DNA of 64,000 nucleotides from positions 1 to 64,000 of IMG/VR virus record IMGVR_UViG_3300042479_000727; one strand, given 5' to 3'. Shown piece by piece: positions 6,957-55,186 of the stretch; positions within the stretch are counted from its first letter, which is position 1, and each line of letters begins with the position of its first letter. The position numbers and the translations under genes were made by a program. The DNA comes from a virus. The notes beneath the pieces are model-generated. The model was not told the DNA's origin. It saw only the letters and a program-made list of their open reading frames with translations, and searched no databases.

Positions 6957-7901
6957 ATGCCTTTTATCAGCACAATAAGAAGTCAATCAAATATTCAACA
7001 GCCCGAAAAAGCAATTTCGGAATCTATCTATGAAATCACTGGCGGTGATAAAGTATACACTGCTGGCGGCTATACCATTCACATGTTTACCACCGTGGGA
7101 GATCATCAGCTAAATGTCAAAGTCAAAGACCAATACAAAAATTCAGCAATGAATTTGGTGAATACCGCCGCTGGTATAACTGTGGAGTATCTAGTTATTG
7201 GCGGTGGCGGCAGCGGCGGCCAGGGATACAGCACCAACGGCAATGGTGGCGGCGGTGCCGGAGGATACCTATCAGGCACCACACCCCTGACAACAGGCAC
7301 GACGCCAGTTACAGTTGGCACAGGTGGTGGACCTCAACCTTACAATGGCGGTGCAAATGGCGCTTCTAGTAATCTTGGACCTATACAGGGCATCTATGGA
7401 GGTTACGGCGGCTATTATCATGGCTCAGCCGGCCAATACGGTGGAAGTGGTGGCGGAGCAGCCTACGGCTACGGCGCCGGTTCGAGCCAACCGGGTCAAG
7501 GGTTTCCAGGTAGTCCATACACATATACTTGGTCGGGCGGTGGCGGTGGTGGGTCCAGTCAAGCCGGTCAGAATCATCAAGGTGGACTTGGTACCAGCAG
7601 CTCAATCACTGGCTCTGCATTAGCTCGAGCAGGTGGTGGTGGTGGTGGTGGTAACAGCTCAGAACCAGGTGGAGATGGAGCCAGCGGTGGCGGTAGAGGT
7701 CACGGATCTACTCCAAATTGGGGCTACAGCTACTATTCATACAGTCAAGATCCTCGCGGAGGATGGGGAGTAACTCATGCCTATACAGCTAATTCCGGAT
7801 CAGGCGGCGGCGCAGGCTCATACTGGGCTCCAAACATTGGCTGGGGTGCAGGTTCGGGATACGGTGCCAGCGGCCTAGTGGTAGTAAGGTATCCTAACTA
7901 A
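6957..7901 (+). CDS. Glycine-rich tail adhesin
   Basis: 314 residues. After about 75 residues of ordinary sequence with GGYTIHMFTTVGDHQLNV comes VEYLVIGGGGSGGQG, then about 200 residues of Gly-rich repeats (GGGG, GGYGGYYHG, GGGGGGSS), ending in ASGLVVVRYPN. This is the layout of the phage glycine-rich domain family, which packs polyglycine helices and ends with a conserved ASGxVxVRY strand. Such proteins sit at fibre tips and bind receptors, in the manner of gp38-type adhesins of T-even phages. An AGGAG site precedes the ATG, and the stop codon overlaps the next start (TAATG). Confidence 0.75.
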   Translation: MPFISTIRSQSNIQQPEKAISESIYEITGGDKVYTAGGYTIHMFTTVGDHQLNVKVKDQYKNSAMNLVNTAAGITVEYLVIGGGGSGGQGYSTNGNGGGGAGGYLSGTTPLTTGTTPVTVGTGGGPQPYNGGANGASSNLGPIQGIYGGYGGYYHGSAGQYGGSGGGAAYGYGAGSSQPGQGFPGSPYTYTWSGGGGGGSSQAGQNHQGGLGTSSSITGSALARAGGGGGGGNSSEPGGDGASGGGRGHGSTPNWGYSYYSYSQDPRGGWGVTHAYTANSGSGGGAGSYWAPNIGWGAGSGYGASGLVVVRYPN

Positions 7902-8329
7902 TGGCAATTTTTAAAACCAATCGAGACATATTCACAGCGCCTTGGGAAGATGAATTGTTCAATGAGAATTGGATGGATCATGATGTTCCTTATGCGCCAC
8001 CAACTGTGGATTGGAAATATGATAGAGAAATGAGGATCGAGGATGTGGAAATCTGGGAACAGATTTGCTACAAAACCGGAGGCATAGGGTTATATGCTGC
8101 ATATCTGCCCTATGCTGAATTTTATATTGTCACAGGAAAATGGATACAGGCAAAACCTGGCAATATTGAATGTTTTTACGGCCCAGGTTCCATGCAGGCT
8201 GCATATCGCAGAGCCAAAGAAGTAGGAATGATAGTTGCTGTAAAAGAAACCTGGGTAGACGATAAAGATCTGTGGTTGCATCAACCTGGTGGAGCCAAAC
8301 AGCAAGGCAATGTCACATTGTCTGATTAA
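7901..8329 (+). CDS. Hypothetical protein, paralogue of the 11768 gene
   Basis: 142 residues, ATG overlapping the adhesin stop codon. Function not recognised. The core IWEQICYKTGGIGLYAAYLP with YAEFYIV after it, and a later ETWVDD, match VWEEIYFKPGVIGVYAAWDP, CEFYLV and NVWVDE in the protein at 11768-12112, so the two are paralogues. No signal peptide or membrane helix. It ends nine bases before the convergent oxygenase gene. By position it may be a fibre-linked or accessory protein. Confidence 0.65.
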   Translation: MAIFKTNRDIFTAPWEDELFNENWMDHDVPYAPPTVDWKYDREMRIEDVEIWEQICYKTGGIGLYAAYLPYAEFYIVTGKWIQAKPGNIECFYGPGSMQAAYRRAKEVGMIVAVKETWVDDKDLWLHQPGGAKQQGNVTLSD

Positions 8330-8337: not shown

Positions 8338-8937
8338 CTAGGCATATTCAAAGTTTGCGCTAATGCTAATCCTAAGCTCTTTACTGTAATTTTTTTCCAC
8401 CATGTGTGGAACATTAGATCTAAATATCAAAAGCAAATCGTCTACTGGTTCATACGTACAGGTTTTCCTGCTAGCAAAATTTTCAAGATTGCCTTCTACC
8501 GGAAGAGTATACATGTCAGTCATGGCTTCTATGCTTCTAAACCGAATTTTTCCACAATTTTCTAACACAGACAGATAGTAACTAACACTGAAATGAGATC
8601 GTGTGTGTTGATGATATTCTTGATAGGCTCCCGGTTCTGCAAGATTAAACCAAAAGTCTTTGCAGTAAAGAGTTTCGATGGGAAGATTAATACCGTAGTT
8701 TTTACCAAATTCGTGTACCTTGTTTCGAAGCAGCTCAATCAAGGATATAACTATAGTGTCTTGATCAGATCTATAATCATAAAATCCCACAGTATTGTAG
8801 GTATCACAGGCCCACTTGGTAACAGTATGACCTTGAGTCTGAAAATATATGGTCTTGGCCTTGTTTACAAGATACTGTCTATGTTGAAAATTTAATGTAT
8901 CATTGTAGATCAGTGTGGGGAACCAACCGTCTATCAT
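8338..8937 (-). CDS. Fe(II)/2-oxoglutarate oxygenase-like protein (HxH type)
   Basis: 199 residues. The N-terminus WFPTLIYND resembles the TIGR02466-type phage oxygenases. YHQHTRSHFSVSYYL (residues 108-122) supplies an H109-x-H111 pair, and IFRSNVPHMV...LRISISANFEY supplies the distal H178 and R189, as in the double-stranded beta-helix fold of Fe(II)/2OG dioxygenases. HxH replaces the classical HxD. It is the last gene of a five-gene minus-strand operon and overlaps the preceding gene by 4 bases. The substrate is unknown. Confidence 0.7.
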   Translation of the reverse strand: MIDGWFPTLIYNDTLNFQHRQYLVNKAKTIYFQTQGHTVTKWACDTYNTVGFYDYRSDQDTIVISLIELLRNKVHEFGKNYGINLPIETLYCKDFWFNLAEPGAYQEYHQHTRSHFSVSYYLSVLENCGKIRFRSIEAMTDMYTLPVEGNLENFASRKTCTYEPVDDLLLIFRSNVPHMVEKNYSKELRISISANFEYA

Positions 8938-9611
8938 TTGGTGTATTGGATATAGGATTTCTCAGCCACAGCATCACCGGGTTTAGTAGATGTTTTATAT
9001 TCTTTTAGAAGTTCTAGACTAGGGACGGTGCCTAGCATGCCCAAAGAATCACGTTTGTCCCATTTCCATTCTGCATTTGGTCCATGAGCATCTACATAAT
9101 GAAAGAAAGCCTGCACTTGCCAAGCATCTTGACCTTTGTCGAAAGGTTCGCGCCAATGAGGCACATCACATCCTCGATAAATTGCTAGGTCACCGGGTAG
9201 TAGATCCACTCGATTACCATCCATATATATTGACCAAACTTTGTCAGCATCGTAATTGAAATTGAAACACAGAGTTGCAGAAATTTCACAACTAGGCCTA
9301 TCTACATGGGGAGTAAGTGTGTCACCGTTTCTATAAACTCTATAATAGCAATAAGTTGGAAACAGAGAAAAACCCACTGCTTGTTCTAGCACAGGTTGCA
9401 GATGCAACAACATGCTTTCCATTGCAGGATCACAGTATTTTGAATGAGCTTCAGCACACTGAGCTCCGTCGCCCATTAAGGCTTTTTCCGGAGTGAAATC
9501 TTGCATTTCATCAAACAGAGCATATTGAGTGACAAAATCTCTTAGTTCCGTGGAGATTGCGGATCTTAATACTAAGTATTTGTTTTTTTCAAAAAAGTCT
9601 TTATTTTCCAT
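8934..9611 (-). CDS. Fe(II)/2-oxoglutarate oxygenase (HxD type)
   Basis: 225 residues when started at the ATG at 9611, which has AAGGAG at the right distance on the minus strand; a longer reading to 9641 has no such support. YYRVYRNGDTLTPHVDRPSC (residues 89-108) gives H102-x-D104. LLPGDLAIYRGCDVPHWREP gives H152, followed by a WQVQAFFHYVD strand. This is the iron facial triad of a 2OG dioxygenase. It overlaps both neighbours in the minus-strand operon, so translation is probably coupled. The substrate could be a protein or a small molecule. Confidence 0.8.
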   Translation of the reverse strand: MENKDFFEKNKYLVLRSAISTELRDFVTQYALFDEMQDFTPEKALMGDGAQCAEAHSKYCDPAMESMLLHLQPVLEQAVGFSLFPTYCYYRVYRNGDTLTPHVDRPSCEISATLCFNFNYDADKVWSIYMDGNRVDLLPGDLAIYRGCDVPHWREPFDKGQDAWQVQAFFHYVDAHGPNAEWKWDKRDSLGMLGTVPSLELLKEYKTSTKPGDAVAEKSYIQYTK

Positions 9612-10404
9612 TTGAAGCTCCTTGATGAAAAGGACAACCAAGTGCTTGTTGTTCTATTTTTTCATGCAGTCTTTTTTTGTTATTATAAAGTTGAGTAGAA
9701 TCACGATATTCATCTCTTTTCATCACAAATTTATCAATGCCAAATACTCGTTGATATTCGGACTGAGTGACCAAATGATGCACAAGTTTGATCTTCTTTT
9801 CAGTCATAGGGTGCATAATAGCCAGTGGAGTCAACGGCAGTATGGTGCAAGTTTGCAATTCTTTGGTCTGTTTTACAAATAGGTTAATTTCAGTGGCATG
9901 GGTATATTTGTAGTTCACTAAGCCAGGCAATACTGATATAACTCCATGGGTGTCTTGCATATTCCATAACGGTTCAGTCCAAGTAAAATTCATGTCTTTT
10001 TTAGTTTTAATTGCCCAGGGAGAAATAAGTTTTATATTATGACCATGCTGGCCAGCAAAGCCAGGAAATTGCACACCTGGATGATTAGTAGGAGTAGAAA
10101 CGTCCCCGTTAGAACTCACCCATTCCCACTCTTTTTCAGATCCTATGGGATTTACCATCATATTCATTTCAAACCATGAAGGAATAGCTATGCCTTTTTT
10201 ATAGTATTCTATAATTGCGTTACAATGTTTTATGGTTACCAAAGGGGGATCAGAGTCTGGCACTTTTGATGGCAACTGTCTCCACCAATCCGGAGCATAC
10301 TTCATAGCCCAGTCAATTTTAGCGTAGTCGTAGGCATGTGCAAGATGAGTAAAGCAGTCTACTACCACTTCTTCTTGTCTAGTAAAAAAATACGGAAATT
10401 TCAT
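9601..10404 (-). CDS. DUF6065-like protein
   Basis: 267 residues. KLISPWAIKT, then a strand-rich core with GVISVLPGLVNYKY, and CTILPLTPLAIMHPM resemble the DUF6065 family as I remember it, a family of unknown function seen beside oxygenase genes in marine phages. A second member of the same kind is at 16588-17316. The core looks cupin-like, but I see no clear HxD motif. It shares an ATGA overlap with the upstream gene and an 11-base overlap with the downstream one. Confidence 0.6.
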   Translation of the reverse strand: MKFPYFFTRQEEVVVDCFTHLAHAYDYAKIDWAMKYAPDWWRQLPSKVPDSDPPLVTIKHCNAIIEYYKKGIAIPSWFEMNMMVNPIGSEKEWEWVSSNGDVSTPTNHPGVQFPGFAGQHGHNIKLISPWAIKTKKDMNFTWTEPLWNMQDTHGVISVLPGLVNYKYTHATEINLFVKQTKELQTCTILPLTPLAIMHPMTEKKIKLVHHLVTQSEYQRVFGIDKFVMKRDEYRDSTQLYNNKKRLHEKIEQQALGCPFHQGASNGK

Positions 10405-11069
10405 AATAATATTTGTCTCGATGCAGGAATAGGAAAATAATCAGAACTTACTTCTTGAATAAAAAATACCTGTGTAAGTCTGGGCCTGTTATCATGCCCT
10501 GTAAATTTATTTACACCATGATACTGGAATCCGTCATAGGCAACAATTCTATTATAGATATTTTTAAAATTCACAGTTTCTTCAAATAGACTGTTGTTTT
10601 CCTGTAGCTTTTCATTATAGAAATCAGTTTTAGTTCTATCAAAGTTCAAAAACATATCTTGTTTTTCTTCTAGATTGATCGGTATATCAAATGGTTTTTT
10701 TGGTCTAAACAACGAAGTGCCGCAGCCCGTATCTATACCGGGAGTGAGATATATCACCCCAGCATATGGCTTATAGTCTGCATGAATCCATCCTTGATTG
10801 ATTGATGAGTATTGATCTGGTTCTGCAATTTGGAAGTAGGTTTCCACAGCCCATTTAACACTGTTGGTTTTTTTAAAATCAAAGGTCAGGGAAAATAGCT
10901 TATCGCAGAAATTTTTAAAAAATACAGGATTTACAGAATCTAGGGAAGGTGATCTTTTGCCAGGCCATGGCACATTAGAAGTTGTTTTGAATTCTAAAGA
11001 TAACGCAAACTCTCTGATCACATTCGGATCGTTATAAAAATTATCTACACACAGAGAAGGAAAATACAT
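10401..11069 (-). CDS. DUF6445-like, 2OG-oxygenase-fold protein
   Basis: 222 residues. NQGWIHADYKPYAGVIYLTP (residues 91-110) holds H97-x-D99. GTSLFRPK follows, and YDGFQYHGVNKFTGHDNRPR gives H184 and Arg195/197. The pattern fits a 2OG-Fe(II) oxygenase fold and the family labelled DUF6445 as I recall it. FPSLCVDNFYNDPNVIREFA at the start is typical of prolyl-4-hydroxylase-like phage proteins. Second gene of the minus operon, one base after the preceding stop. Substrate unknown. Confidence 0.7.
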   Translation of the reverse strand: MYFPSLCVDNFYNDPNVIREFALSLEFKTTSNVPWPGKRSPSLDSVNPVFFKNFCDKLFSLTFDFKKTNSVKWAVETYFQIAEPDQYSSINQGWIHADYKPYAGVIYLTPGIDTGCGTSLFRPKKPFDIPINLEEKQDMFLNFDRTKTDFYNEKLQENNSLFEETVNFKNIYNRIVAYDGFQYHGVNKFTGHDNRPRLTQVFFIQEVSSDYFPIPASRQILL

Positions 11070-11070
11070 A

Positions 11071-11700
11071 TTATATTTCTCTATCCTTGATCCACGTTAC
11101 CATGCTGTATTTTGTGCCAGATGTTATTGGGTGTGCAATGTGTAGATACGCATAGTTGGATGGGAACAAAATTAACATTCCGGGTTCAGGTTTAATTTTT
11201 ACGTGAAAATTAGGAAATTCCAACTCACCTCCTTCAAAATTGTCATTTAAATAACACAAGCAAGATATTGCTCTTCCTATAGGAGTTCCGCCATCATAAT
11301 GTCCTTTGTATTCTTCGCCTTGATCGTATTTTAACATTTGATAATGTTCGTGCCAAAGACCTTCCTTGATATTAAATCTTTTAGCATAGGGAATTGATGC
11401 TGCTAATAATAACATATAGAACTGATTATGAACATTTTGTAATACAGCATTATTGGTAATTCCTGCTAGATGAGTAACTCCCATCATTTTGTTTGTTCTG
11501 TGTGTTTGATGTGGTCCTTCCTGAGTGGTTTCGGCTCGTTGCCAATGCACTCCGGAATCTGAATTAGAAGCTGCGTTTTCCACCATCTTGATAGTGTTCT
11601 CTGGGTTCGGCCAGGCATTTTCATAAATGGCAATACAACCTGCTATCACAGTGCTTGGCTGTAGTTCCCCAGGAAAAAAATTGTTTATTACCACGGTCAT
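11071..11700 (-). CDS. Prolyl 4-hydroxylase-like 2OG-Fe(II) oxygenase
   Basis: 209 residues. YDQGEEYKGHYDGG (H134-x-D136), CYLNDNFEGGELEFP, and FPSNYAYLHIAHPITSG with K197 give the full P4Hc pattern: two His, one Asp, and Lys to bind 2-oxoglutarate. It is the best match to prolyl 4-hydroxylases in the window. First gene of the minus-strand oxygenase operon, with AAAGGAC before the ATG and a TTAAATA late-type box 27 bases upstream. It may hydroxylate proline in a phage or host protein. Confidence 0.85.
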   Translation of the reverse strand: MTVVINNFFPGELQPSTVIAGCIAIYENAWPNPENTIKMVENAASNSDSGVHWQRAETTQEGPHQTHRTNKMMGVTHLAGITNNAVLQNVHNQFYMLLLAASIPYAKRFNIKEGLWHEHYQMLKYDQGEEYKGHYDGGTPIGRAISCLCYLNDNFEGGELEFPNFHVKIKPEPGMLILFPSNYAYLHIAHPITSGTKYSMVTWIKDREI

Positions 11701-11727
11701 ATTGTTGTCCTTTTATACGAGCTATGC

Positions 11728-11734
11728 TATTTAA
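11728..11734 (-). promoter_or_regulatory. Possible late promoter TTAAATA for the minus oxygenase operon
   Basis: Read on the minus strand the box is TTAAATA, with a 27-base leader containing AAAGGAC before the ATG at 11700. It differs from TATAAATA at one position. It is the only candidate promoter found ahead of the five coupled oxygenase genes. Confidence 0.4.
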
Positions 11735-11754
11735 GAGAGCAACGGAATTATTTC

Positions 11755-11761
11755 ATAAATA
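11755..11761 (+). promoter_or_regulatory. T4-type late promoter, leaderless spacing
   Basis: ATAAATA followed by 6 bases and then the ATG at 11768. With T4 late spacing, the first transcribed base would fall on or beside the A of the start codon. No ribosome site could fit on such an mRNA. Confidence 0.75.
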
Positions 11762-11767
11762 CTGATT

Positions 11768-12112
11768 ATGGCCACCCGTTTTATTTCCAGCGACGAGATA
11801 TTCAGTCACAAGTTTTATAAAAATTATTGTCAAAACATCTCGTCTAACAATTTGCAAACTACTGCTACTCCTTGTGTTGCAGATATAACAGTTTGGGAAG
11901 AAATTTATTTTAAACCAGGTGTAATAGGTGTATACGCTGCCTGGGATCCTTATTGTGAATTCTATTTGGTTTATTATCCTGTGTTAGCGGAAACAAAGTT
12001 CCATTCGTTGACATTTTTTGGAAAAGATGCTTCGAATAGGGTTCAGGAATTTCTTGCAACATATGATATAGATCTTGCTACCAACAATGTATGGGTAGAT
12101 GAAATCAACTGA
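11768..12112 (+). CDS. Hypothetical protein, paralogue of the 7901 gene
   Basis: 114 residues. VWEEIYFKPGVIGVYAAWDP and the ending NVWVDEIN match the 7901-8329 protein. Function unknown; there is no signal peptide, helix or catalytic motif. It has its own late promoter with leaderless spacing. Its last 8 bases overlap the convergent gene at 12105. The two paralogues lie on either side of the minus-strand oxygenase operon, which hints that this block was inserted or that the pair arose by duplication. Confidence 0.7.
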   Translation: MATRFISSDEIFSHKFYKNYCQNISSNNLQTTATPCVADITVWEEIYFKPGVIGVYAAWDPYCEFYLVYYPVLAETKFHSLTFFGKDASNRVQEFLATYDIDLATNNVWVDEIN

Positions 12113-12341
12113 ATTTCAATGAAAAAGTCATCAGATCTAAACTATTTGAAAACTCAATGCAACTCCAATCTTCAGAAATTGATGATTTAAATTCTGTTTG
12201 CCAGTGATGTCTAATCACAGACTGTAGATCTAAAGACAACTGATCTGTATTATTTTGTTTTTCTATAAGATATTCCACGGCTTTGAGAAAAACAGGACTC
12301 ACAGCGCAGTCATCTTGTAGTATTTTGATAGTCAAAGTCAC
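12105..12341 (-). CDS. Small hypothetical protein with GTG start
   Basis: 78 residues, mixed hydrophobic and polar, probably alpha/beta. No known family. It is kept as a real gene because a perfect ATAAATA late box lies four bases before the GTG at 12341 on the minus strand, the same leaderless layout as other late genes here. It is convergent with the 11768 gene and divergent from the fibre gene at 12408. Confidence 0.5.
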   Translation of the reverse strand: MTLTIKILQDDCAVSPVFLKAVEYLIEKQNNTDQLSLDLQSVIRHHWQTEFKSSISEDWSCIEFSNSLDLMTFSLKFS

Positions 12342-12345
12342 TGTT

Positions 12346-12352
12346 TATTTAT
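12346..12352 (-). promoter_or_regulatory. T4-type late promoter, leaderless spacing, minus strand
   Basis: ATAAATA on the minus strand (TATAAATA if the preceding base is included), four bases before a GTG codon that opens a 78-codon frame. It supports both the strand and the start of that gene. Confidence 0.65.
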
Positions 12353-12376
12353 AGGTATCCAGTCTGCATTTTTAGA

Positions 12377-12383
12377 ATAAATA
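12377..12383 (+). promoter_or_regulatory. T4-type late promoter of the 760-residue fibre gene
   Basis: ATAAATA with a 24-base leader before the ATG at 12408. Here the mRNA has room for a short leader, though no strong Shine-Dalgarno is seen. Confidence 0.65.
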
Positions 12384-12407
12384 ATAGACTAATAACAAAG
12401 AATATCA

Positions 12408-14690
12408 ATGGCCAAAATATCCGTATCCGATGCAGTAAGAATAATTCCAAGAGACGCTGAATTTCTGAACAGAAAGTCAGGGCTAAGAGGTGAAGTTTTT
12501 TACGATCAAACAGCTAATACCCTTAGAATTTACAACGGATCATCCACTGGCGGATTAAATTTAGCTAGAGGAGATCTTGCCAATGTGTCAACCAGTGATT
12601 TTAGATCTAAGTCTGTGGTTTCTAAACTGGCTACAGTCACATATCAGGTAACAATCACAGGTCCTCAAGGCGGCGATACAGGCAACAAATACAATCTTAA
12701 CGGTGTTTATCGTCCTATACTGAATTTTGTAGTGGGCTATACCTATGTGTTTGTTCAGGACGATCCTACCAACGTCTACTTTCCTAACGTCAATGGAACT
12801 ACAGTAAATCAGCATCCTTTGAATTTTTCCGCAGATAATCTCAGTGGAAACAATGGCGGCGGCACAAGTTATCTTGTAGATGTGCAATATTACCTAGATA
12901 ATGTTAATGTTACACAGGCAGTGTATAACAGTAATATGTTTGCCACAGCCACTGCACGGCAGGTGCGTATCACAGTCACTAATTCTACGCCAGCTTTGCT
13001 CTACTATTGGTGTTGGAATCACTTGGCCATGGGTCAGTCAATAGCAGTAGCAGATCCTGGATCAGGAACCGGTAGCGGAGGCGCACTAAATGACTTGAGT
13101 GATGTTGTGTTAACAACTCCAACAATTAACCAGGTGTTGAAGTATAACGGCACAAATTGGATTAATGATACAGACTTAGAGTCTAATAGTTTTGCCACAA
13201 TAGCAGTAGCAGGGCAAAGCTCAGTGGCTGCGGGCACCCCCACAGATACGCTGACACTAGTGGCAGGCGCAGGTATAACCCTCACAACTAATGCTGGCAC
13301 AGATGCCATTACAATTACCAGCACAGCCAGCACAGGCAACATAACATTTGTTGCTAACACCATAGACAGCACAGACAGCACAGCTATCACTGTAACTCCT
13401 GCTGTAAATTTTGAATCAGATGTGGTAGTAGGCAATGAAATCGTATTTGCAGACGGCACAAGACAGAATACTTCTGCTGTAGGTGTACCTGGGCCAGTAG
13501 GACCGCAAGGGCCAGCAGGAGCTTCGGGAGCAGGTACAGGAGATGTTCTTAGCAGTGGTGGCGGATATGTCGATAATGCTATTGTACGCTATGACGGTAC
13601 TACCGGTACTATCATACAAACCAGCTCTGCAACCATATCAGATGCTGGACTACTTACGGCCACTAACTTCAGTGGTGGAGGTTCAGCACTTACTTCGTTA
13701 AATGCTACGCAGTTGACTTCAGGCACCATACCGGACGCCAGATTTCCGGCTACGTTGCCTGCAGTGAGTGGCGCAAATCTCACAGCACTTCCTGCAACAT
13801 TACCAGCGGCCAGCGGGGCTAATCTCACAGCATTAAATGCTACACAACTCACCAGCGGCACAGTACCCATCGGAAGACTCGGGTCGTCAGGAACACCTAG
13901 TGCCAGCACCTACCTTAGAGGCGACAATACATGGGCTACTGTTTCGGGCGGAGGATTAGCATCTGACAGTTTTGCCACTATATCTGTGGCAGGCCAATCG
14001 AATGTTGTAGCAGATTCAGCCACAGACACACTAACACTGGTGGCAGGTACAGGCATTACTATTACCACAGATGCAGGTACAGACACTGTGACCATTACCA
14101 ACTCAGGTACTGGCCAAAACACTTTTGAAACAATAGCAGTAGCTGGGCAGAGTTCTGTGGTAGCAGATTCGGCCACTGACACTCTTACTATAGCTGCAGG
14201 CACAGGGATCTCAATAACCACGGATGCCGGCACAGACACAGTGACAATTACCAGCACAGTCAGCGCAGGCGCCACATCATTCACCGGACTAAGTGATCGT
14301 GCAGATCTCACCATAGACCAATTTTATCTACAGGCAATAACAAGACTTAATGTCACAAACAACGGAGCTAGTGCTTACAGATTTGACCAATATGGCACCA
14401 CTGACGATCCTACAGTCTATGCCATCAATGGCACCACCATAGCTTTCAATCTCAATGTGACTGGACATCCATTCTTGATACAAGACGGCGCTGGCGCAAA
14501 TTATAACACAGGATTGGTACACGTGACCACAGGGGGCACCGTAACTACAGGAGCGTCGGCTCAAGGTCAAACATCGGGCACACTATATTGGAAGATTCCA
14601 GATTCAATTACTGGTAGCTACAGATATCAGTGTAGTGTTCATGCTGCTATGATTGGAACTATTCAGATTAAAAACTTTGCCAGTATTTAA
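12408..14690 (+). CDS. Tail-fibre protein with collagen-like stretch and two cupredoxin-like motifs
   Basis: 760 residues. Two regions carry the C-x2-H-x2-M motif of cupredoxin-like beta sandwiches: CWNHLAM near 13010-13030, with a possible upstream ligand in NQHPLNF, and CSVHAAM near 14630-14650, with TGHPFLIQDG upstream. Between them is a repeated fibre motif (TLTLVAGAGITLTT and near copies at about 13250, 14030 and 14190). A short collagen-like run of six Gly-x-y triplets (GVPGPVGPQGPAGASGAG) lies at about 13480-13540. Repeats of LPAxSGANLTALxATQLTSG follow. The protein is clearly a trimeric fibre or baseplate appendage. Metal binding is plausible but unproven. Oxygenase genes flank it on both sides. 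Confidence 0.75.
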   Translation: MAKISVSDAVRIIPRDAEFLNRKSGLRGEVFYDQTANTLRIYNGSSTGGLNLARGDLANVSTSDFRSKSVVSKLATVTYQVTITGPQGGDTGNKYNLNGVYRPILNFVVGYTYVFVQDDPTNVYFPNVNGTTVNQHPLNFSADNLSGNNGGGTSYLVDVQYYLDNVNVTQAVYNSNMFATATARQVRITVTNSTPALLYYWCWNHLAMGQSIAVADPGSGTGSGGALNDLSDVVLTTPTINQVLKYNGTNWINDTDLESNSFATIAVAGQSSVAAGTPTDTLTLVAGAGITLTTNAGTDAITITSTASTGNITFVANTIDSTDSTAITVTPAVNFESDVVVGNEIVFADGTRQNTSAVGVPGPVGPQGPAGASGAGTGDVLSSGGGYVDNAIVRYDGTTGTIIQTSSATISDAGLLTATNFSGGGSALTSLNATQLTSGTIPDARFPATLPAVSGANLTALPATLPAASGANLTALNATQLTSGTVPIGRLGSSGTPSASTYLRGDNTWATVSGGGLASDSFATISVAGQSNVVADSATDTLTLVAGTGITITTDAGTDTVTITNSGTGQNTFETIAVAGQSSVVADSATDTLTIAAGTGISITTDAGTDTVTITSTVSAGATSFTGLSDRADLTIDQFYLQAITRLNVTNNGASAYRFDQYGTTDDPTVYAINGTTIAFNLNVTGHPFLIQDGAGANYNTGLVHVTTGGTVTTGASAQGQTSGTLYWKIPDSITGSYRYQCSVHAAMIGTIQIKNFASI

Positions 14691-14765
14691 TTTTCTTTCA
14701 ATTCTGACATTATAAATCAAATAGTTGATAATAGCTAATTTATTTTTGAATCTGAAATTATTGAA

Positions 14766-14772
14766 TTAAATA
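14766..14772 (+). promoter_or_regulatory. Possible late promoter TTAAATA
   Basis: TTAAATA followed by CT, as in several late boxes here (ATAAATACT), 24 bases before the ATG at 14797. It lies in a 106-base AT-rich gap that holds nothing else I can identify. Confidence 0.4.
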
Positions 14773-14796
14773 CTCGTTTGCAAAGTATATGAGATC

Positions 14797-15396
14797 ATGA
14801 ATCCACAAATTATTCCAATTTTTCCTGCAGCTATCTATAGAATCAATCTTAGAAAGTTATCAGCGGCTGAACGAATTGCATATGACACTAATACCGTAAC
14901 CTCTATAAGTAGACAAGGCAATCAGACATCTGTTAATTCAACCCTGCTTGATAGCGATGTATTCTCAGATTTGAAAAACATATTCATGGAGCATGTACAT
15001 AATTATGCTCGAGAAGTGATTAAAACAAACTGCCAATTTTATATGACAAATTCCTGGAAAAATCAAAATAAAAAAGGACAACCACACGATCTGCACAATC
15101 ACAGAAATAGCGTGATTTCAGGAGTATACTATGTGAATGTTGCAGACAGTGAAAATTCTATCTGTTTCAACAGGCTAACATCACCGTTTTTTATGGAGTT
15201 TGAGTGCAGCGAACGTACACCATTTAACAGCATAGAATGGCAGATTCCTGTTGAAGATGCAATGTTAATACTTTTTCCTTCCACTCTCTTTCACAGTGTG
15301 CCTGTAAATACCACAAACAACGAACGATTGAGTATTTCTTTTAATACTTTCATCAAAGGTAATTTCAATAATAACACTCTTGTGATCAACGCATAG
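14797..15396 (+). CDS. TIGR02466-type 2OG-Fe(II) oxygenase
   Basis: 199 residues. The start IIPIFPAAIYR, SWKNQNKKGQPHDLHNHRNS (H100-x-H102), SGVYYVNV, and LFPSTLFHSVPVN with H166 followed by ERLSISFN (R177) are the ordered motifs of the TIGR02466 phage oxygenase family. HxH stands in place of HxD. It opens the plus-strand half of the oxygenase island and is followed after 44 bases by the rubrerythrin-like gene. A second close relative is at 17848. Substrate unknown. Confidence 0.85.
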   Translation: MNPQIIPIFPAAIYRINLRKLSAAERIAYDTNTVTSISRQGNQTSVNSTLLDSDVFSDLKNIFMEHVHNYAREVIKTNCQFYMTNSWKNQNKKGQPHDLHNHRNSVISGVYYVNVADSENSICFNRLTSPFFMEFECSERTPFNSIEWQIPVEDAMLILFPSTLFHSVPVNTTNNERLSISFNTFIKGNFNNNTLVINA

Positions 15397-15397
15397 C

Positions 15398-15404
15398 ATA
15401 AATA
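15398..15404 (+). promoter_or_regulatory. T4-type late promoter of the rubrerythrin-like gene
   Basis: ATAAATA directly after the preceding stop codon, then a 36-base leader containing CCGGAGA about 12 bases before the ATG at 15441. Confidence 0.65.
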
Positions 15405-15440
15405 CACTATATAATTTTACTCATTCCGGAGATCATTTAC

Positions 15441-15971
15441 ATGAACACAGAATTACCAGTCCCAGAGGGATATCAAGAACCATTAATTCCGCCCCCTGAT
15501 CTTGATCCAAATACACCGTTGGCTATTCCAGTGGCATTGAATAGCAAGACTGCAGCCAATCTTAAACTGGCGTTTGCTGCCGAGGCACGATCTAATGATA
15601 GATATCACTATTTTGCTACTGTGGCTGAAAAATATGAAGATGCAAATGCTACAGCTTATTTTAAACAGATTGCCGAAGAAAAACATATGTTTGCTCAAGG
15701 CCATTTAAAAGAAGCTATTTTAGGTGGATTAGGTGATCCAGATACTGGAAAGCCATCAATGCATATTACCCAGGTATTGGAAACTGCAATTGCTTCTGAA
15801 ATGCAAGCATCGGTTGAGCTGTATACAAAATATGCAGATGATGCTCGAGAAGACAAGTTGCCGCATTTAGCAGAGTGGTTTATTGAATTATCAAGAAGAG
15901 CATCTGCTCATAAAAAATCATTCGAAGACCTGCTGAAATACTACGATCCTGCCCCACCCGACAACGAATAA
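15441..15971 (+). CDS. Rubrerythrin-like four-helix protein with several missing iron ligands
   Basis: 176 residues. After a Pro-rich 30-residue start, LKLAFAAEARSNDRYHYF, then FKQIAEEKHMFAQGHLKEA, then LETAIASEMQASVELY, then AEWFIELSRRASAHKKSF align with the four helices of rubrerythrin. There is no C-terminal rubredoxin domain. E48, E120 and H157 fit iron ligands. The expected Glu and His of the second helix appear as K81 and F84, and two later Glu as A123 and A154. This protein may therefore not hold a normal di-iron site. It lies among Fe(II) oxygenase genes, which suggests a link to iron or oxygen handling. Confidence 0.8.
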   Translation: MNTELPVPEGYQEPLIPPPDLDPNTPLAIPVALNSKTAANLKLAFAAEARSNDRYHYFATVAEKYEDANATAYFKQIAEEKHMFAQGHLKEAILGGLGDPDTGKPSMHITQVLETAIASEMQASVELYTKYADDAREDKLPHLAEWFIELSRRASAHKKSFEDLLKYYDPAPPDNE

Positions 15972-15989
15972 GTTATATAATCTGTTCGC

Positions 15990-16544
15990 ATGAATCGAGT
16001 AGACTCAACTCTACCAATATTTTTACACCAAGGGTTAAAATCTTATCCAATTGATTGGATGAAGACACAGGTGTTAGCCGCACATCACAAGGCAGACTAC
16101 AACACCGGAAATAATTTTCAAATCAACGATTCTTCGGGAGTGTTTCACACCTTATACAAAGATTTTTTTCATATTGCCAACCAGCATTTTGGTCCACTAG
16201 AATTAGATCAAAGAAATCTTGCCAGCTGTTGGGGTTATGTAACGAACAAATTTTTTTACAAAGGTGGCATCCATAATCACCTAAATACCTGTGTAATTAA
16301 TGCTGTTTACTATTTGAATATACCCGAGACTGCAGATAGACATCAAGGGTCTCTAAGTTTTTATGATAATAACTTTCATGAAATCTATAATATAAGACCC
16401 AACGTTGGTGATTTGATTATTTTTCCAGGATATCTTAACCATCAGCCTCATCAATCATTTAGTTTAGATTATAGAGTTTCTATTAACATGGAAATTATTT
16501 GTCAAAATGTCTGGGGTGTTGACAACAACTCTGTTTTGAGTTAA
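15990..16544 (+). CDS. 2OG-Fe(II) oxygenase-like protein (HxH type)
   Basis: 184 residues. GYVTNKFFYKGGIHNHLNTC (residues 82-101) gives H95-x-H97; AVYYLNIPE follows. DLIIFPGYLNHQPHQS gives H151 or H154, and YRVSINMEI gives R162. This matches the phage 2OG oxygenase layout used by its neighbours. The ATG is 8 bases after a TATAAT sequence (15976-15981), but no -35 box is visible, so a promoter there is uncertain. The HNH letters are part of the iron motif, not an HNH nuclease. Confidence 0.75.
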   Translation: MNRVDSTLPIFLHQGLKSYPIDWMKTQVLAAHHKADYNTGNNFQINDSSGVFHTLYKDFFHIANQHFGPLELDQRNLASCWGYVTNKFFYKGGIHNHLNTCVINAVYYLNIPETADRHQGSLSFYDNNFHEIYNIRPNVGDLIIFPGYLNHQPHQSFSLDYRVSINMEIICQNVWGVDNNSVLS

Positions 16545-16551
16545 TGATTGC

Positions 16552-16580
16552 TTGTAAAATCTGTGTTGATGTGTTATAAT
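16552..16580 (+). promoter_or_regulatory. Sigma-70 promoter TTGTAA-N17-TATAAT
   Basis: TTGTAA at 16552-16557 and TATAAT at 16575-16580 with exactly 17 bases between them. The ATG at 16588 is 7 bases after the -10 box, so transcription would start one base before or on the start codon. It predicts early expression of the gene by host RNA polymerase. Confidence 0.75.
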
Positions 16581-16587
16581 CAAAGAC

Positions 16588-17316
16588 ATGACTGCACAAA
16601 AGATTATATTTTATCCCACTATACCTGGCATCGATAAGACAATGCCGATTTTATCTGCAGATAAAATCGTGCATAATTGGAAACAGGAAGCAGCTAGAGA
16701 ATTTAAAAATCAAAAAAATAATCTCGGGCATGCCATACACAGCATTTCTAATTGTCCCGGAATCAACATCTTACAGAGTCAAGGGTTTGTAGTGCGAGCA
16801 TGGCAAGATATCTACGTCAAAGCAGATTCGTCACAGGATAAAATACAGTGGAGAACTCCTATTGATCAAGAAAAAATCAACGGCAGTCCGGCGATTGAGG
16901 AACATCAAGACAGTTTGTTTAAAACATTTCAAAACTGGCCGAATCATTCTAGCCGATCTGTGATAAAATTTATCACTGGCTGGTGCTGTAAAATTCCCAG
17001 TGATTATCTTTTAATACAAACTTCTGTATTCTACGCCGATGAAAATCGATTCACTGCTCTAAGTGGGATTTATTCAAGTGACTACGGAATCAATAACATA
17101 AATGTTCCGGTATTTTGGCACAACCTCAATGAGGAAACCGTGATCAAAGCTGGCACCCCCCTTGCACAATTAATTGCAGTTCCTAAGAATTCCTTGGAAT
17201 TAGAAATCAGAACTGATATTAGCAAAGAAGAACTAACGATAAATTATATATTGATGAACAATACTTTCGTAAGAAATTACGCTAAGATCAAATCATATTT
17301 TCAGGGAAATCAATAG
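16588..17316 (+). CDS. DUF6065-like protein (second copy)
   Basis: 242 residues. VIKFITGWCCKIPSDYLLIQ, then YADENRFTALSGIY, then a closing AGTPLAQLIAVPKNSLELEI follow the order seen in the 9601-10404 protein and in DUF6065 as I remember it. The fold is probably cupin-like; no metal triad is obvious. Biochemical role unknown. It has a consensus host-type promoter directly in front, unlike its neighbours with late boxes. The stop overlaps the GTG of the next gene by one base. Confidence 0.65.
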   Translation: MTAQKIIFYPTIPGIDKTMPILSADKIVHNWKQEAAREFKNQKNNLGHAIHSISNCPGINILQSQGFVVRAWQDIYVKADSSQDKIQWRTPIDQEKINGSPAIEEHQDSLFKTFQNWPNHSSRSVIKFITGWCCKIPSDYLLIQTSVFYADENRFTALSGIYSSDYGINNINVPVFWHNLNEETVIKAGTPLAQLIAVPKNSLELEIRTDISKEELTINYILMNNTFVRNYAKIKSYFQGNQ

Positions 17317-17837
17317 TGCAAAGTACATTGTTTGAAACAAAATTTTATAGTTATTATATCAATGATTGGGAATCAAAGAAAGAAAAAATTTCAAAAAAAA
17401 TTAATGCAGCGGCATTGGTAAGAAAGCCCGGTCAATTGTTTGCAAGCGATCGAGGTAATAACAGCTATCAGTCTGAGTTTGTTGAAATTTTTAAGAATGA
17501 ACTGGCTCTGTTTTCTAATGAAATTAAAGTAGAATCATTAGATATAGGCGACGTATGGACAGTGTCTTATGCAAAAGATGAATTTCATATCCCTCATAAT
17601 CACTCGGGGGTGGGATATTCGGGAATCATCTATTTAGATTACGATGAAACCTTACACAGTCCAACTTATTTTATTAATCCTGTAAATAATCCCATAACTG
17701 ATCAAACAGAGATAAAGAATATTGAAGCCAGTGAAGGATTAATGATTATTGTACCGAGTAATATTTTACATTACACGTTGCCTAATAATTCACACACAAT
17801 CAAAACTATAATTGGCTTTGATTTAAAATTTAGATAA
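17316..17837 (+). CDS. 2OG-Fe(II) oxygenase-like protein, GTG start
   Basis: 173 residues, starting at GTG that shares a G with the preceding TAG. VSYAKDEFHIPHNHSGVGYS (residues 83-102) supplies H94-x-H96, GIIYLDYDE follows, and LMIIVPSNILHYTLPNNSH supplies H152. Where relatives have Arg for the 2-oxoglutarate carboxylate, only K163 is in place. So it is a likely but divergent member. It is AT-rich like the rest of the block and tightly coupled to its neighbours. Confidence 0.7.
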   Translation: MQSTLFETKFYSYYINDWESKKEKISKKINAAALVRKPGQLFASDRGNNSYQSEFVEIFKNELALFSNEIKVESLDIGDVWTVSYAKDEFHIPHNHSGVGYSGIIYLDYDETLHSPTYFINPVNNPITDQTEIKNIEASEGLMIIVPSNILHYTLPNNSHTIKTIIGFDLKFR

Positions 17838-17847
17838 GGCGGTTTCT

Positions 17848-18534
17848 ATGACACATGATGTTATTCCGTTATTTCCAACTCCATTATTTGTTGCAGAGAT
17901 ACAAGGATTCACCAACGAAGAATTAGAATTTGTAAAACAGTCATCTTTGTATTCTCGATACAAAGATGAACCAGGAAGATGTGTAGGATCGGATAGATTT
18001 GATATCATACATTTACCTGAAATGTCAAGAGTATGTGATTTTGTGCAAACACAGTTGAATCTATATGCTCGAGAGGTAATGTCTATATCTAATCAGTTGT
18101 TTCCTACTATCAGTTGGTTGAATCGTACCACAACAGGTGCATATCATTATCAACATCATCATGTGAATAGCATTGTCAGCGGAGTTCTATATTTCACAGA
18201 GGATCCTGCACCTATTGAATTTCACGTAGATAAAAATTGTGTTTGGGGCTCATTAAAGATGTTTCCTATCAAATATAATCAATATAACACTCATAGCACC
18301 ACAGTTGAAATCAAACAAGGAACATTATTGATATTTCCGTCCTACTTAGAACATTCTGTAATGAGATCAATAGCTGACACTGATAGGATAAGTTTATCTT
18401 TTAACACTTGGGTGAATGGAACAATAGGCCTATTAGATAAGACCAGTTTTTTAAATTTAGATGCTCCAACATTAAAATTTGAGCCCAAAGACAATTTGAA
18501 TGTGTTGATAGAACGACAACGATTGCAAAAATGA
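17848..18534 (+). CDS. TIGR02466-type 2OG-Fe(II) oxygenase (second copy)
   Basis: 228 residues. VIPLFPTPLFVAEI at the start, ISWLNRTTTGAYHYQHHHVN (H103-x-H105) with NSIVSGVLYF, and LLIFPSYLEHSVMRSIADTD (H169) then RISLSFNTWVNG (R180). This is the same motif order as the 14797 gene. The extra 30 residues at the C-terminus carry no motif. It overlaps the next gene by 4 bases. Confidence 0.85.
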   Translation: MTHDVIPLFPTPLFVAEIQGFTNEELEFVKQSSLYSRYKDEPGRCVGSDRFDIIHLPEMSRVCDFVQTQLNLYAREVMSISNQLFPTISWLNRTTTGAYHYQHHHVNSIVSGVLYFTEDPAPIEFHVDKNCVWGSLKMFPIKYNQYNTHSTTVEIKQGTLLIFPSYLEHSVMRSIADTDRISLSFNTWVNGTIGLLDKTSFLNLDAPTLKFEPKDNLNVLIERQRLQK

Positions 18535-19058
18535 TTAAACAGTATAACAAATTCACAGACGAATGGTTGCATTCTATAGTTAAAGAACAAGTATTAAATC
18601 CGATGTTAGATTGGAATTTTCCAAGTTATGCAACCGGTGAAATCGATTTAGAAAAGGCGGCATTTGGTAAGTTAACATTTAATAAACAACAAAACATCAA
18701 TAATTGGAACAGAGTAGAATCATTGACCTATGTTCTTGATCGATGGTTAGATCAAAATAAAGAATGGTTTAAAATTGATTTTTTAAATCACTGTATGATA
18801 AATTTTTACACTGCTGGTCAGGTCACTGCCTGGCATAATGATAACTCTTATAAATTACCTGGAACATATAGTTTACTTTATTATGTAGATGATAGCAATG
18901 GCGGGACTGAATTTGAACATCAAAAATGTTTCCACAAAGAAAACACAGGCATATTTTTTGATTCTAATCTAAGTCATAGACCGATTGCGTCAACTAAACC
19001 TAGACGTATAAGTGTAAGTTGGGTTCTAAAAGGAACAATTTTGCACAATGCTCAATAA
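18531..19058 (+). CDS. 2OG-Fe(II) oxygenase, HxD prolyl-hydroxylase-like
   Basis: 175 residues. MINFYTAGQVTAWHNDNSYK (H102-x-D104), SLLYYVDDSNGGTEFEH, and FFDSNLSHRPIASTKPRRIS (H149, Arg158/159) followed by VSWVLKG give a clean 2OG oxygenase core. Last gene of the plus-strand oxygenase block. It converges with the small gene ending at 19066, and no terminator hairpin is visible between them. Confidence 0.8.
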   Translation: MIKQYNKFTDEWLHSIVKEQVLNPMLDWNFPSYATGEIDLEKAAFGKLTFNKQQNINNWNRVESLTYVLDRWLDQNKEWFKIDFLNHCMINFYTAGQVTAWHNDNSYKLPGTYSLLYYVDDSNGGTEFEHQKCFHKENTGIFFDSNLSHRPIASTKPRRISVSWVLKGTILHNAQ

Positions 19059-19065
19059 ATTTTGT

Positions 19066-19344
19066 TTAGTTTTTTTGTGCCTGTGACCAGTCTCTGATTC
19101 TAGTTTCTAATTTTTTTCTTATAGCTGTGATATCTTGTTTCATTTCACTGCCCATGGTAGGTAGCTGACGACTGTAGATCATTTCCATATGCATGCTATC
19201 TAATTTTTTTATTTCTGCAACAAGTTTATTCAATAGTTGTTGAGATTCTTGTTTAGCTGCACCATCAGGCATTGTGTCGATGGCTGTGCGATATCGCTCA
19301 TAATCTTCCTGGAATCTACTAGATTTTTGTAACAGACTTGACAT
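19066..19344 (-). CDS. Small helical hypothetical protein
   Basis: 92 residues, almost entirely charged helix with heptad-like spacing (KLVAEIKKLDSMHMEMIY, IRKKLETRIRDW), so probably a coiled coil. No family recognised. It overlaps the preceding gene by 26 bases at the end of the gp14-gp15 minus-strand transcript. A tail-assembly accessory role is a guess from location only. Confidence 0.6.
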   Translation of the reverse strand: MSSLLQKSSRFQEDYERYRTAIDTMPDGAAKQESQQLLNKLVAEIKKLDSMHMEMIYSRQLPTMGSEMKQDITAIRKKLETRIRDWSQAQKN

Positions 19345-19714: not shown

Positions 19715-19722
19715 GCAGATAC

Positions 19723-21300
19723 TTATCCGCCCACTGTCTTGAAGTTCCACTCTCCTGGCAGATATTCACCTTCAAATGCTTTGAGCCATTGAGTGCCATC
19801 CCATTTGTATTTGATGCCTGTGCGGATATTTTGAATATGTGTGGGTGAGAAATCTTCACCTGCAATAGCTGCATCTTCCAATGTATGATCTTCAGGATTC
19901 CAAATTGTGGCCCAGGTTTGCCCAGTCCACTCTACAATAGAGTTGGCTGTGATCACAGGATCCGTGCCGTCTTGATTTTCCCATGATGAATCGTTATTAC
20001 TAGGATCACGCCAGGCCTGCGGACCTCTATATGGTATGTTTGTGCTGTCTGCAGGATTAGAAGGAAGGTTAATGTAACCTCCACGATTCTCACTGTTGTT
20101 GACATCGTCTAACATCAAGAATCTTAAACCTACTGGTATCTGCGAGTATGATCCATAGACTTCTAACGGATTATACTTGTAAGGATCTATGATAGCATCT
20201 ACCGTGCCTCTAGCAGCTATGCCGGGGATACTACTGGCAATGTCGTCATTGGCAGGATATGTGTCTGCATCTAAAGTCACCGTGAGAACAGTCTGGTCTA
20301 GAGGATTGATCACAAACGTGCCCACAATCTCATAGCCACTGGCTTTTTTGAACCATATCTCACTGCCCGGCACATAGCCGCCTTGTATCTCTAGAATCTT
20401 TGACCACTCTACCGGTTCGCCATTTTTAAATTCTTTCTGACTCAGCCCCAATGACTGCACAGCATCTAATGGATTCACGAGTGTGAGATCATATTGATTA
20501 TCATTGACTGTTCCTGTGTTAGATTTGAACAGTAACACTCGATAATTACCATAAGTTTTAGTAACTAGGGTCATACTGGATTGAGAAGTGTTGTATATTA
20601 GATCTGAAAGATCCATCACATCGCCCTGTTCTGTGAACACATTGGCTATTATGCTTTGAACTATGCCTAGTTTTTTGACCTTGGCCGGTGGTGATATATA
20701 CACAGGCATTTCAAAATCAAGACTGCAGATGTCTATATCTGATTCTGCGCCTTGAGGTATTGTCCTACTGGAAAAATTAGTGCCGGTTAGATACATGGCG
20801 CTGAGACTGGTCCAGTCTATATAATTGTCAGTGGTCTGTAGTTCTAAACTGGGATTAAACAGCACTAATATCTGTTCCAACAACTGTAATTTTTGATCGG
20901 TGTTGGATGTCCATATATCAGCTTTCATGGTCAGTTTGAATGGAGTAGGCATGAGCCTTTCAACAGTGTAATTGCCGCCCTGTGCGCCCGAATATTCTCT
21001 TGTGCCACTGGCGTCTGTGAATCTGCGTTCTCTCACATGTATCTTAGACACGAATGTGGGATCACTGAGCCTGTTAGTATCCATCTCAATGCCTGTGATA
21101 TAACAAGCTATTCTCGGCACCGTAGGCATTTTGTTTTCAGAATTATCTTTGATAATGCTGGCTACCTGTCTGGTCAAATCGCCATACATTACAGGAATCT
21201 GTCGTTGTTCGCCATCGCCTGCTTGATATTTAAATCCAATGAACACACGCATGAACTGCGTGACATACCGTCGTATCTGTCCGTCGTAGTGAAAATCCAT
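19723..21300 (-). CDS. gp15: gp15-like tail sheath stabiliser/completion protein (enlarged)
   Basis: 525 residues. The start FHYDGQIRRYVTQFMRVFIG and IPVMYGDLTRQVASI, then LPTPFKLTM-like (MPTPFKLTMKADIWTS) and QILVLFNPSLELQ, match T4 gp15 in order. gp15 caps the tail and connects it to the neck. T4 gp15 has about 270 residues; here a C-terminal half of about 270 residues (from roughly 20500 down to 19723) is extra and holds YVPGSEIWFK and EYLPGEWNFK repeats of unknown role. It lies directly after gp14 on the same strand. Confidence 0.8.
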   Translation of the reverse strand: MDFHYDGQIRRYVTQFMRVFIGFKYQAGDGEQRQIPVMYGDLTRQVASIIKDNSENKMPTVPRIACYITGIEMDTNRLSDPTFVSKIHVRERRFTDASGTREYSGAQGGNYTVERLMPTPFKLTMKADIWTSNTDQKLQLLEQILVLFNPSLELQTTDNYIDWTSLSAMYLTGTNFSSRTIPQGAESDIDICSLDFEMPVYISPPAKVKKLGIVQSIIANVFTEQGDVMDLSDLIYNTSQSSMTLVTKTYGNYRVLLFKSNTGTVNDNQYDLTLVNPLDAVQSLGLSQKEFKNGEPVEWSKILEIQGGYVPGSEIWFKKASGYEIVGTFVINPLDQTVLTVTLDADTYPANDDIASSIPGIAARGTVDAIIDPYKYNPLEVYGSYSQIPVGLRFLMLDDVNNSENRGGYINLPSNPADSTNIPYRGPQAWRDPSNNDSSWENQDGTDPVITANSIVEWTGQTWATIWNPEDHTLEDAAIAGEDFSPTHIQNIRTGIKYKWDGTQWLKAFEGEYLPGEWNFKTVGG

Positions 21301-55177: not shown

Positions 55178-55186
55178 GGACAATTG

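Follow-up and report, generated by a model that had tools for sequence, protein, structure and literature searches.

A halogenase-free, oxygenase-rich cassette in a hypervariable tail-gene locus of a viral genome record

The host recognition cluster of pelagimyophages and cyanomyophages is a hypervariable island in which tail fibre genes, glycosyltransferases and metabolic genes lie beside the neck and gp14-gp15 genes of T4-like phages (PMC7029224). Comparable loci are the g15-g18 hyperplastic region of cyanomyoviruses (PMC2984593) and a gene cluster of the jumbo cyanophage S-SSM6a that combines several 2-oxoglutarate (2OG) oxygenases with halogenases and carbamoyltransferases (PMC7824862). 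2OG oxygenases are also common auxiliary genes of cyanophages (76/153 in the table of PMC10452541). These and later statements about published work extend to the excerpts of the cited papers considered here. We examined 64,000 nucleotides of viral DNA, hereafter the window, which form positions 1 to 64,000 of the 86.6-kb IMG/VR record IMGVR_UViG_3300042479_000727 (G000). An island at 8338 to 19058 of the window encodes two DUF6065-like proteins, a rubrerythrin and nine Fe(II)/2OG-type oxygenases, each of the nine with a complete iron motif.

The window locus resembles both the hypervariable host recognition cluster and the g15-g18 region, with variable gene content lying between conserved borders with tail fibres. 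The window has a large tail fibre gene on the left (87..5681, plus strand; 1864 amino acids; phrog_9851 tail fiber protein, E 3.9e-63) and gp15, the conserved tail sheath stabiliser, on the right (19723..21300, minus strand; PF16724, 86 bits); the borders described for the host recognition cluster are the VrlC gene (left) and gp14 (right). Cargo differs, being mostly oxygenases in the window, and the phage, itself T4-like, is a distant one. Its gp15 is less than 60% identical to that of all 89 named records matched, and a near-identity search against named phages returned no match for the window. The likeness to the S-SSM6a cluster extends to the halogenases and carbamoyltransferases of the window's relatives, whereas the window island itself has no profile match to either; Pfam and PHROG scans also recognised no glycosyltransferase or ligase in it. 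One carbamoyltransferase (PF02543/PF16861) lies far from the island, just beyond the window end, at ~64.2-65.7 kb of the record (~64211-65680). The island belongs to a known kind of hypervariable locus, here in a form rich in oxygenases and devoid of halogenases.

Whatever its target, the island is a hypervariable, swappable tailoring cassette, and this conclusion is far more secure than the virion-protein target that we favour. Our preferred reading, to which we give a probability of roughly 0.4, is that the island encodes tailoring enzymes of a host-recognition locus that most likely act on the phage's own virion adhesion proteins. The identity of the enzymes, their distribution among relatives and their mode of exchange are considered in turn, together with the alternatives on which each bears.

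The oxygenase genes form two compact blocks on opposite strands around a connector gene at 12408, with gaps of at most 44 bases within each block; all nine open reading frames (ORFs) are present at the positions given here, and we name genes by their first position. Seven of the nine exceed a Pfam cut-off. Five match PF13759: 8338..8937 on the minus strand (59.4 bits) and, on the plus strand, 14797..15396 (78 bits), 15990..16544 (35.6 bits), 17316..17837 (34.5 bits; GTG start) and 17848..18534 (73.3 bits). Two more, both on the minus strand, are a prolyl-4-hydroxylase-like PF13640 gene (11071..11700, 58.5 bits) and a DUF6445 gene (10401..11069; PF20043, 51.4 bits), the latter linked to the 14797 type by HHalign (78%). 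The plus-strand gene 18531..19058 falls just below the PF13640 cut-off (24.9 versus 27 bits), and the minus-strand gene 8934..9641 (TTG start) has no Pfam match. The beta-helix fold was assigned through the family for eight genes and through a predicted model for 8934 alone.

Because HHalign related the 8934 family only weakly to the families of the other oxygenases (highest value 27%), we modelled 8934 with AlphaFold2 from a 46-sequence alignment, obtaining a mean predicted local distance difference test score (pLDDT) of 87.3. A Foldseek search of the PDB with this model returned the Pseudomonas putida prolyl-4-hydroxylase at the top (E 1.4e-10) and 579 chains at E<=0.001, and VIA gave Z scores of 15.7-18.0 to prolyl hydroxylases and to natural-product or amino-acid 2OG enzymes alike. 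In sequence searches of the PDB neither the 8934 nor the DUF6445 family had an evident relative, the best matches having E 0.25 and 0.08, respectively. All nine genes are of the Fe(II)/2OG oxygenase type. An earlier note on this DNA, made from the letters alone, had named nine such genes with readable motifs of both HxD and HxH types, two DUF6065-like genes and a rubrerythrin-like gene; Pfam, alignments and the 8934 model bear this out, with four HxD and five HxH genes.

Each of the nine proteins carries its motif together with a distal His. HxH begins at residues 109, 100, 95, 94 and 103 of the PF13759 proteins 8338, 14797, 15990, 17316 and 17848, reading HQH(109-111)..H, HNH(100-102)..H166, HNH(95-97)..H, HNH(94-96)..H152 and HHH(103-105)..H. 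HxD begins at residues 112, 96, 134 and 102 of 8934, 10401, 11071 and 18531, reading HVD(112-114)..H162, HAD(96-98)..H184, HYD(134-136)..H187 and HND(102-104)..H149. In PF13759 members the carboxylate of the iron triad is thus replaced by His, as it is in the solved relatives 2rg4 and 3bvc. We counted motifs among island proteins of the 14797, 18531 and 11071 types below 90% identity, and in the 8934 family below 80%. HxH..H is found in 48/48 island members of the 14797 type and in 92/93 further PF13759 members, and it appears, from these alignments, to be the norm of the family. HxD..H is found in 46/46 members of the 8934 family and, read by eye from the alignment, in 17/17 of the 18531 type, where the broken triads of a first read-out were alignment errors. 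The 11071 type, counted with the window gene 55184 included, has HxD/E..H in 16/17 (12 HxD..H and 4 HxE..H) and HxD..Y in one; in the DUF6445 alignment the Asp and distal His stand in 12/12 and the first His is aligned in 10/12. An Arg after the distal His, a candidate 2OG-binding residue, is present in 43/48 PF13759 members and in 12/12 DUF6445 sequences (R197).

Several of these relationships point to protein hydroxylation. The closest solved relatives of 11071 are the bacterial prolyl 4-hydroxylases 3itq and 5hv0 (E 3e-8), with PHD2 and the lysyl hydroxylase LH3 lower in the list. The relation to prolyl 4-hydroxylases is by sequence for 11071 and by fold for 8934 (P. putida enzyme, 4j25), at low identity. 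One PDB entry for the P. putida enzyme is a complex with EF-Tu, and JmjC_2 genes occur in the islands of the cultured phage Syn9 and of one relative (G019) – observations that would suit hydroxylation of host translation factors, ribosomal proteins or regulators to reprogramme the infected cell. Such a role is unlikely, since it leaves unexplained both the placement among tail genes and the set-wise replacement in a host-recognition locus. Still less probable is that the enzymes mainly affect the 2OG level, nitrogen signalling or DNA repair, although DNA repair and control of nitrogen and 2OG have been proposed for cyanophages (PMC3037559; cited in PMC9146016). Consumption of a single cofactor would not call for nine divergent enzymes, none of the nine has an AlkB-type or TET/JBP match over the cut-off (PF13532 and PF12851 sub-threshold only), and the island lies among tail genes.

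To place the island among its relatives, we compared a 20-kb stretch from each of 24 related records, lying next to gp15 or, in records that do not extend to gp15, around the island. We searched these stretches with our own oxygenase profiles and grouped the records into island types by common oxygenases at 80% identity. Apart from the window's type (which includes G024-G026) there are 12 other types: ten with oxygenases, plus G006 and G009, which have none. At least six oxygenases within 20 kb were found in 19/24 records and 8/12 other types, and more than nine in 3/12; only 5/24 records have two or fewer, two of these having none. The earlier note had singled out the density of oxygenase genes as unusual, a claim that falls with the finding of comparable islands in most of the relatives compared: the density is ordinary for such islands and not special to this phage.

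Concentration at this locus is evident within and between genomes. A near-identical relative of the window (oxygenase 14797 at 100% identity) is available as a record of 281,658 bases, in which 8 of the 13 places found by PF13759, PF13640 or PF20043 lie inside the 10.7-kb island (our own tally; binomial P 5e-9); adding the 8934-type gene, which was looked for in the island only, would give 9/14. Across 20 of 80 gp15 loci, near-duplicates included, the island side of gp15 holds 57 oxygenases in 155,223 bases, compared with 0 in 193,180 on the other side.

Comparison between records indicates that oxygenase sets are exchanged as units. No oxygenase is common to different island types at 80% identity, and the gp15 of other types is 76-100% identical to that of the window. 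G007 is 99% identical to the window over 19065 to 21300, has no blastn match longer than 150 bases across the oxygenase blocks and shares no oxygenase at 80%. The reverse is seen in G025 and G026, where cassette oxygenases are 83-95% identical to those of the window (synonymous divergence, dS, 0.26-1.06) while gp15-side genes have dS 1.8-3.1, with one further gene saturated; four adjoining genes on that side (19066 to 22697) are 54-72% identical and two further right 79-90%. In G024, the left side of which is covered, the large tail fibre gene (92% identity, dS 0.59) has diverged no more than the cassette, and the exchanged piece can therefore include this gene.

The plus-strand block (14695..19064) is missing from four of the relatives compared. 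Blastn and the junction letters show that in G006, G007, G008 and G018 the connector end is joined directly to the position of 19065, leaving a clean empty site in place of the 4.37-kb block. The ends of the block in the window carry the short similar sequence TTTA(A/G)TTTT.

Consistent with a shared gene pool, all nine island oxygenases score higher with another phage's gene than with any window paralogue; the 71-kb paralogue, window-type copies and matches at 70% identity or above were excluded from this comparison, which gave no relative for 55184. On this basis we rejected an origin of the nine genes by recent tandem duplication. The gene-pool idea of the earlier note is supported, with sets swapped between relatives. 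Gene order recurs as well. A distant locus (L200) repeats the order of 11071, DUF6065, 8934 and 8338 types without the 10401 gene, its three oxygenases being 63%, 50% and 47% identical to their counterparts. The 8934 family brought in at least 599 loci; of the 80 best, 63 have at least three oxygenase genes and 6 have the 8934 gene only; the exact order 11071-type, 14797-type, 8934-type is found in 26/80, and in 66/80 the 8934-type gene stands within 100 bases of another island-type gene on the same strand. This recurring order at most suggests the multi-step system that had been proposed for the island.

Orthologous oxygenases have dN/dS ratios of 0.045-0.31, indicating purifying selection, and the diversity of the island is therefore a product of exchange and not of fast protein change. 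Cassette swapping is compatible with the arms race that the earlier note had considered, but the orthologous oxygenases are constrained. The same values bear on the idea that genes come and go neutrally in the island. High turnover and the 5/24 relatives with two or fewer oxygenases would fit that idea, yet purifying selection, near-complete conservation of the iron motifs, a recurring operon order and the restriction to mostly one chemical class of enzymes make it highly improbable, and we regard it as already disfavoured.

Similar islands are found in cultured phages. Syn9 and Syn10 each have nine oxygenase profile matches, eight close together and the ninth ~1 kb on, preceded by two halogenases and a DUF6065 gene; the Syn9 island follows tail fibre-type genes and the Syn10 island follows genes noted as similar to those of Syn9. 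As in the window, a DUF6065 gene and PF13759, PF13640, DUF6445 and 8934-type oxygenases lie close together after tail fibre-type genes. Unlike the window, both phages have two halogenases, all genes on one strand and no annotated rubrerythrin, and Syn9, on which the Pfam scan was run, has a JmjC gene. Of ten Syn9 genes in that scan, five are over the cut-off (two PF13759, PF13640, DUF6445 and JmjC_2), three are below it and two have no match. Comparable runs follow genes with a tail fibre or tail fiber assembly annotation in S-RIM44, P-RSM6, P-TIM40 and S-SSM7, and DSL-LC04 has a single oxygenase among lectin-like genes.

Transferred names obscure some of these genes. PHROG families of the window oxygenases are called 'ferrochelatase' (phrog_2954, gene 8934), 'minor coat protein' (phrog_1644, gene 10401) and 'DNA endonuclease V' (phrog_274, gene 18531), and the deposited Syn9 annotation gives several island genes these same names. 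The Syn10 gene beside DUF6065 is VirX1, a viral halogenase that has been characterised (PDB 6qgm; residues 1-530 matched, 1271 bits), and one island halogenase of a window relative (one tried) has VirX1 as its best solved relative (E 1.6e-106). More widely, halogenase-profile matches occur in the compared stretch of 9/12 other island types, eight with oxygenases and G009 without.

The companions of the oxygenases are two DUF6065-like genes (9601..10404, minus strand; 16588..17316, plus strand) and, within the plus-strand block, a rubrerythrin/ferritin-like gene (15441..15971, plus strand; PF02915, 43.5 bits). The two DUF6065-like proteins are one family: HHalign gives 99.2% between their families after removal of shared members, and both match phrog_7084. 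Neither passes the Pfam cut-off for DUF6065, for which a relative's gene reaches 26.0 of 26.6 bits. The AlphaFold2 model of 16588 (pLDDT 93.2) has a predicted fold like that of dUTPases and dCTP deaminases, which fill all best 50 Foldseek rows at modest E-values (best 4.6e-4); dUTPases fill all best 50 rows of VIA (Z up to 11.2, root-mean-square deviation 2.4, 120 aligned). An Asp-containing motif, which we take to be the catalytic motif of dUTPases, is not kept in the family (consensus GxLxxxxG, 44 sequences), and so, despite its dUTPase-type fold, 16588 is probably not a dUTPase.

DUF6065-like genes and oxygenases frequently occur together. Viral contigs yielded 213 DUF6065 loci, of which we examined the 80 best; 16 of these 80 are close to the window. 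Within the DNA covered per locus, the 64 others include an oxygenase in 50 (at least two in 38), a halogenase in 30 and no oxygenase in 14. A scan of 84,980 prokaryote genomes with one narrow peptide pattern, which does not show absence from bacteria, returned a single contig (L356, PBNR01000075.1) from a gammaproteobacterial metagenome-assembled genome; consecutive genes on this contig, which may be viral, encode two oxygenases, a halogenase and a DUF6065 protein. DUF6065-like genes are also present in many Halorubrum and Haloarcula tailed virus records. In HRTV-5, a Halorubrum virus and the one such virus examined, the relative lies near a ribonucleotide reductase gene and not beside annotated oxygenases.

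We favour a virion-protein target because the island stands among fibre and baseplate genes, because 11071 and 8934 have prolyl-hydroxylase relatives and because no scaffold-making genes were recognised in the 11/28 leftover genes scanned (described below). Large tail fibre and minor tail protein genes lie to its left, the connector in its middle and gp15 to its right. The enzymes would be made in the infected cell and would hydroxylate exposed protein residues, the likely targets being the phage fibre and baseplate adhesins encoded around the island; the modification would change attachment chemistry or fibre stability. The DUF6065 protein may act as a binding or adaptor part, and the rubrerythrin might help to supply or protect Fe(II). 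Relatives add VirX1-type flavin adenine dinucleotide (FAD) halogenases, carbamoyltransferases, a JmjC hydroxylase and a luciferase-like monooxygenase to the set, and these would supply additional modifications. The active site of VirX1 is described as large and accessible (PMC8407142), which would suit a bulky substrate.

A different target would be host cell-surface glycans, or a phage-directed amino-acid or sugar small molecule, tailored for superinfection exclusion or competition. For the S-SSM6a cluster of carbamoyltransferases, halogenases and 2OG oxygenases the published reading is secondary-metabolite or capsule chemistry (PMC7824862), and the relatives of the window have islands with halogenases and carbamoyltransferases of natural-product type. 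The pelagimyophage host recognition cluster also includes glycosyltransferases of lipopolysaccharide type, for which surface alteration has been proposed (PMC7029224). The window itself also encodes an oxygenase outside the island, in a separate sugar operon that the earlier note had recognised: a PF13640 gene at 55184..55942 (plus strand, 61.3 bits) with nucleotide-sugar neighbours (PF02350, PF02719, PF04321). In the opposite direction stand the prolyl 4-hydroxylase relatives of 11071 and the lack, noted above, of any halogenase or carbamoyltransferase profile match and of any recognised glycosyltransferase or ligase in the window island.

Genes between the oxygenases of relatives' islands also bear on this alternative. 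After removal of the oxygenase, halogenase, DUF6065, carbamoyltransferase and fibre/border families, 28 leftover genes remained, of which 11 were scanned with Pfam: two are over the cut-off (JmjC_2 and luciferase-like monooxygenase), two have sub-cut-off matches (AdoMet_dc and DUF6071) and seven have none. No scaffold-making enzyme was recognised among these 11. Taking both sides together, we consider a glycan or small-molecule target somewhat unlikely. Two genes of relatives were observed apart from this question. In G012 a chaperonin gene (L168:15768-17432; PF00118, 248 bits) separates the island from gp15, and in G020 the island includes the luciferase-like flavin monooxygenase (L176:7137-8138; PF00296, 115 bits).

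A number of points weigh against a virion-protein target, several of which, like the S-SSM6a reading, lend support to the glycan or small-molecule alternative. The highest VIA match of the 8934 model is SnoN, a natural-product epimerase (Z 18.0, root-mean-square deviation 3.5, 185 aligned), and the amino-acid halogenases HalB, HalA and BesD also rank high; the fold therefore does not decide between a protein and a small-molecule substrate. A sub-cut-off glycosyltransferase match (PF01075, 16.0 of 22 bits) adjoins the carbamoyltransferase in G020, a little beyond the stretch that was counted, and the Pfam scan covered 11 of the 28 leftover genes. In HTVC008M the oxygenases and a carbamoyltransferase are close to curli genes, not to fibre genes. 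The window-type cassette occurs with one connector gene in G000 and with three fibre-like genes in G024-G026, and G006 has a large tail gene 91% identical to that of the window (over 1023 amino acids) and a gp15 97% identical, yet no oxygenase in 20 kb; a given cassette does not go with a given fibre type. No enrichment of T4-type late promoters was seen, with 3 TATAAATA against 5.15 expected. With regard to chemistry, 8934 as we read it has no evident Arg/Lys for 2OG binding where one usually follows the distal His, and PF13759 enzymes, with HxH in place of HxD, may not use 2OG in the standard way.

The remaining genes of the locus include tail components. A minor tail/fibre protein (6039..6941, plus strand; phrog_8780 minor tail protein, E 2.2e-15) follows the large tail fibre gene. 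Two small plus-strand paralogues (30% identity) stand at either side of the minus-strand oxygenase block, at 7901..8329, with no function assigned, and at 11768..12112. The gene that separates the two oxygenase blocks (12408..14690, plus strand), called a fibre gene in the earlier note, is indeed a tail gene, but a baseplate wedge/tail-fibre connector (phrog_677, E 1e-49) with a short collagen-like Gly-X-Y run. Collagen prolyl hydroxylation as a specific role is not supported, a run of 5-6 Gly-X-Y triplets being present in relatives with and without oxygenases. By eye, two stretches of the connector resemble the Cys-His-Met sites of type-1 copper (cupredoxin) proteins; a PDB search with the connector end gave at most a weak pseudoazurin match (E 1.5). 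An eleventh oxygenase lies beyond the window, at ~71.3-71.9 kb of the same record.

These results change how the 2OG oxygenases of cyanophages can be viewed. Earlier read as nitrogen or DNA-repair genes, they make up, when taken together, a cassette that is under selection and is swapped within the host-recognition locus of distantly related phages. Part of this cassette is concealed by names carried over to it (ferrochelatase, minor coat protein, DNA endonuclease V). None of the excerpts considered from PMC3037559, PMC2984593, PMC10452541, PMC8407142, PMC7029224, PMC7824862, PMC9146016 and PMC4164917 joins the tail fibre location, the 2OG oxygenase set and the halogenases into a role on virion proteins. 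The natural roles of VirX1 and of the cyanophage oxygenases thus merge into one testable question, namely what the island modifies, and because Syn9 and Syn10 are cultured, the virion chemistry of island phages is accessible to mass spectrometry. As a tentative generalisation, T4-like aquatic phages may diversify their adhesion apparatus chemically in addition to varying its sequence, with swappable sets of peptidyl hydroxylases and, in relatives, VirX1-type halogenases and carbamoyltransferases installing non-standard residues in fibre and baseplate proteins. If this is true, VirX1's natural substrate would be a virion protein, and swapping the set would change surface chemistry and hence host recognition or evasion.

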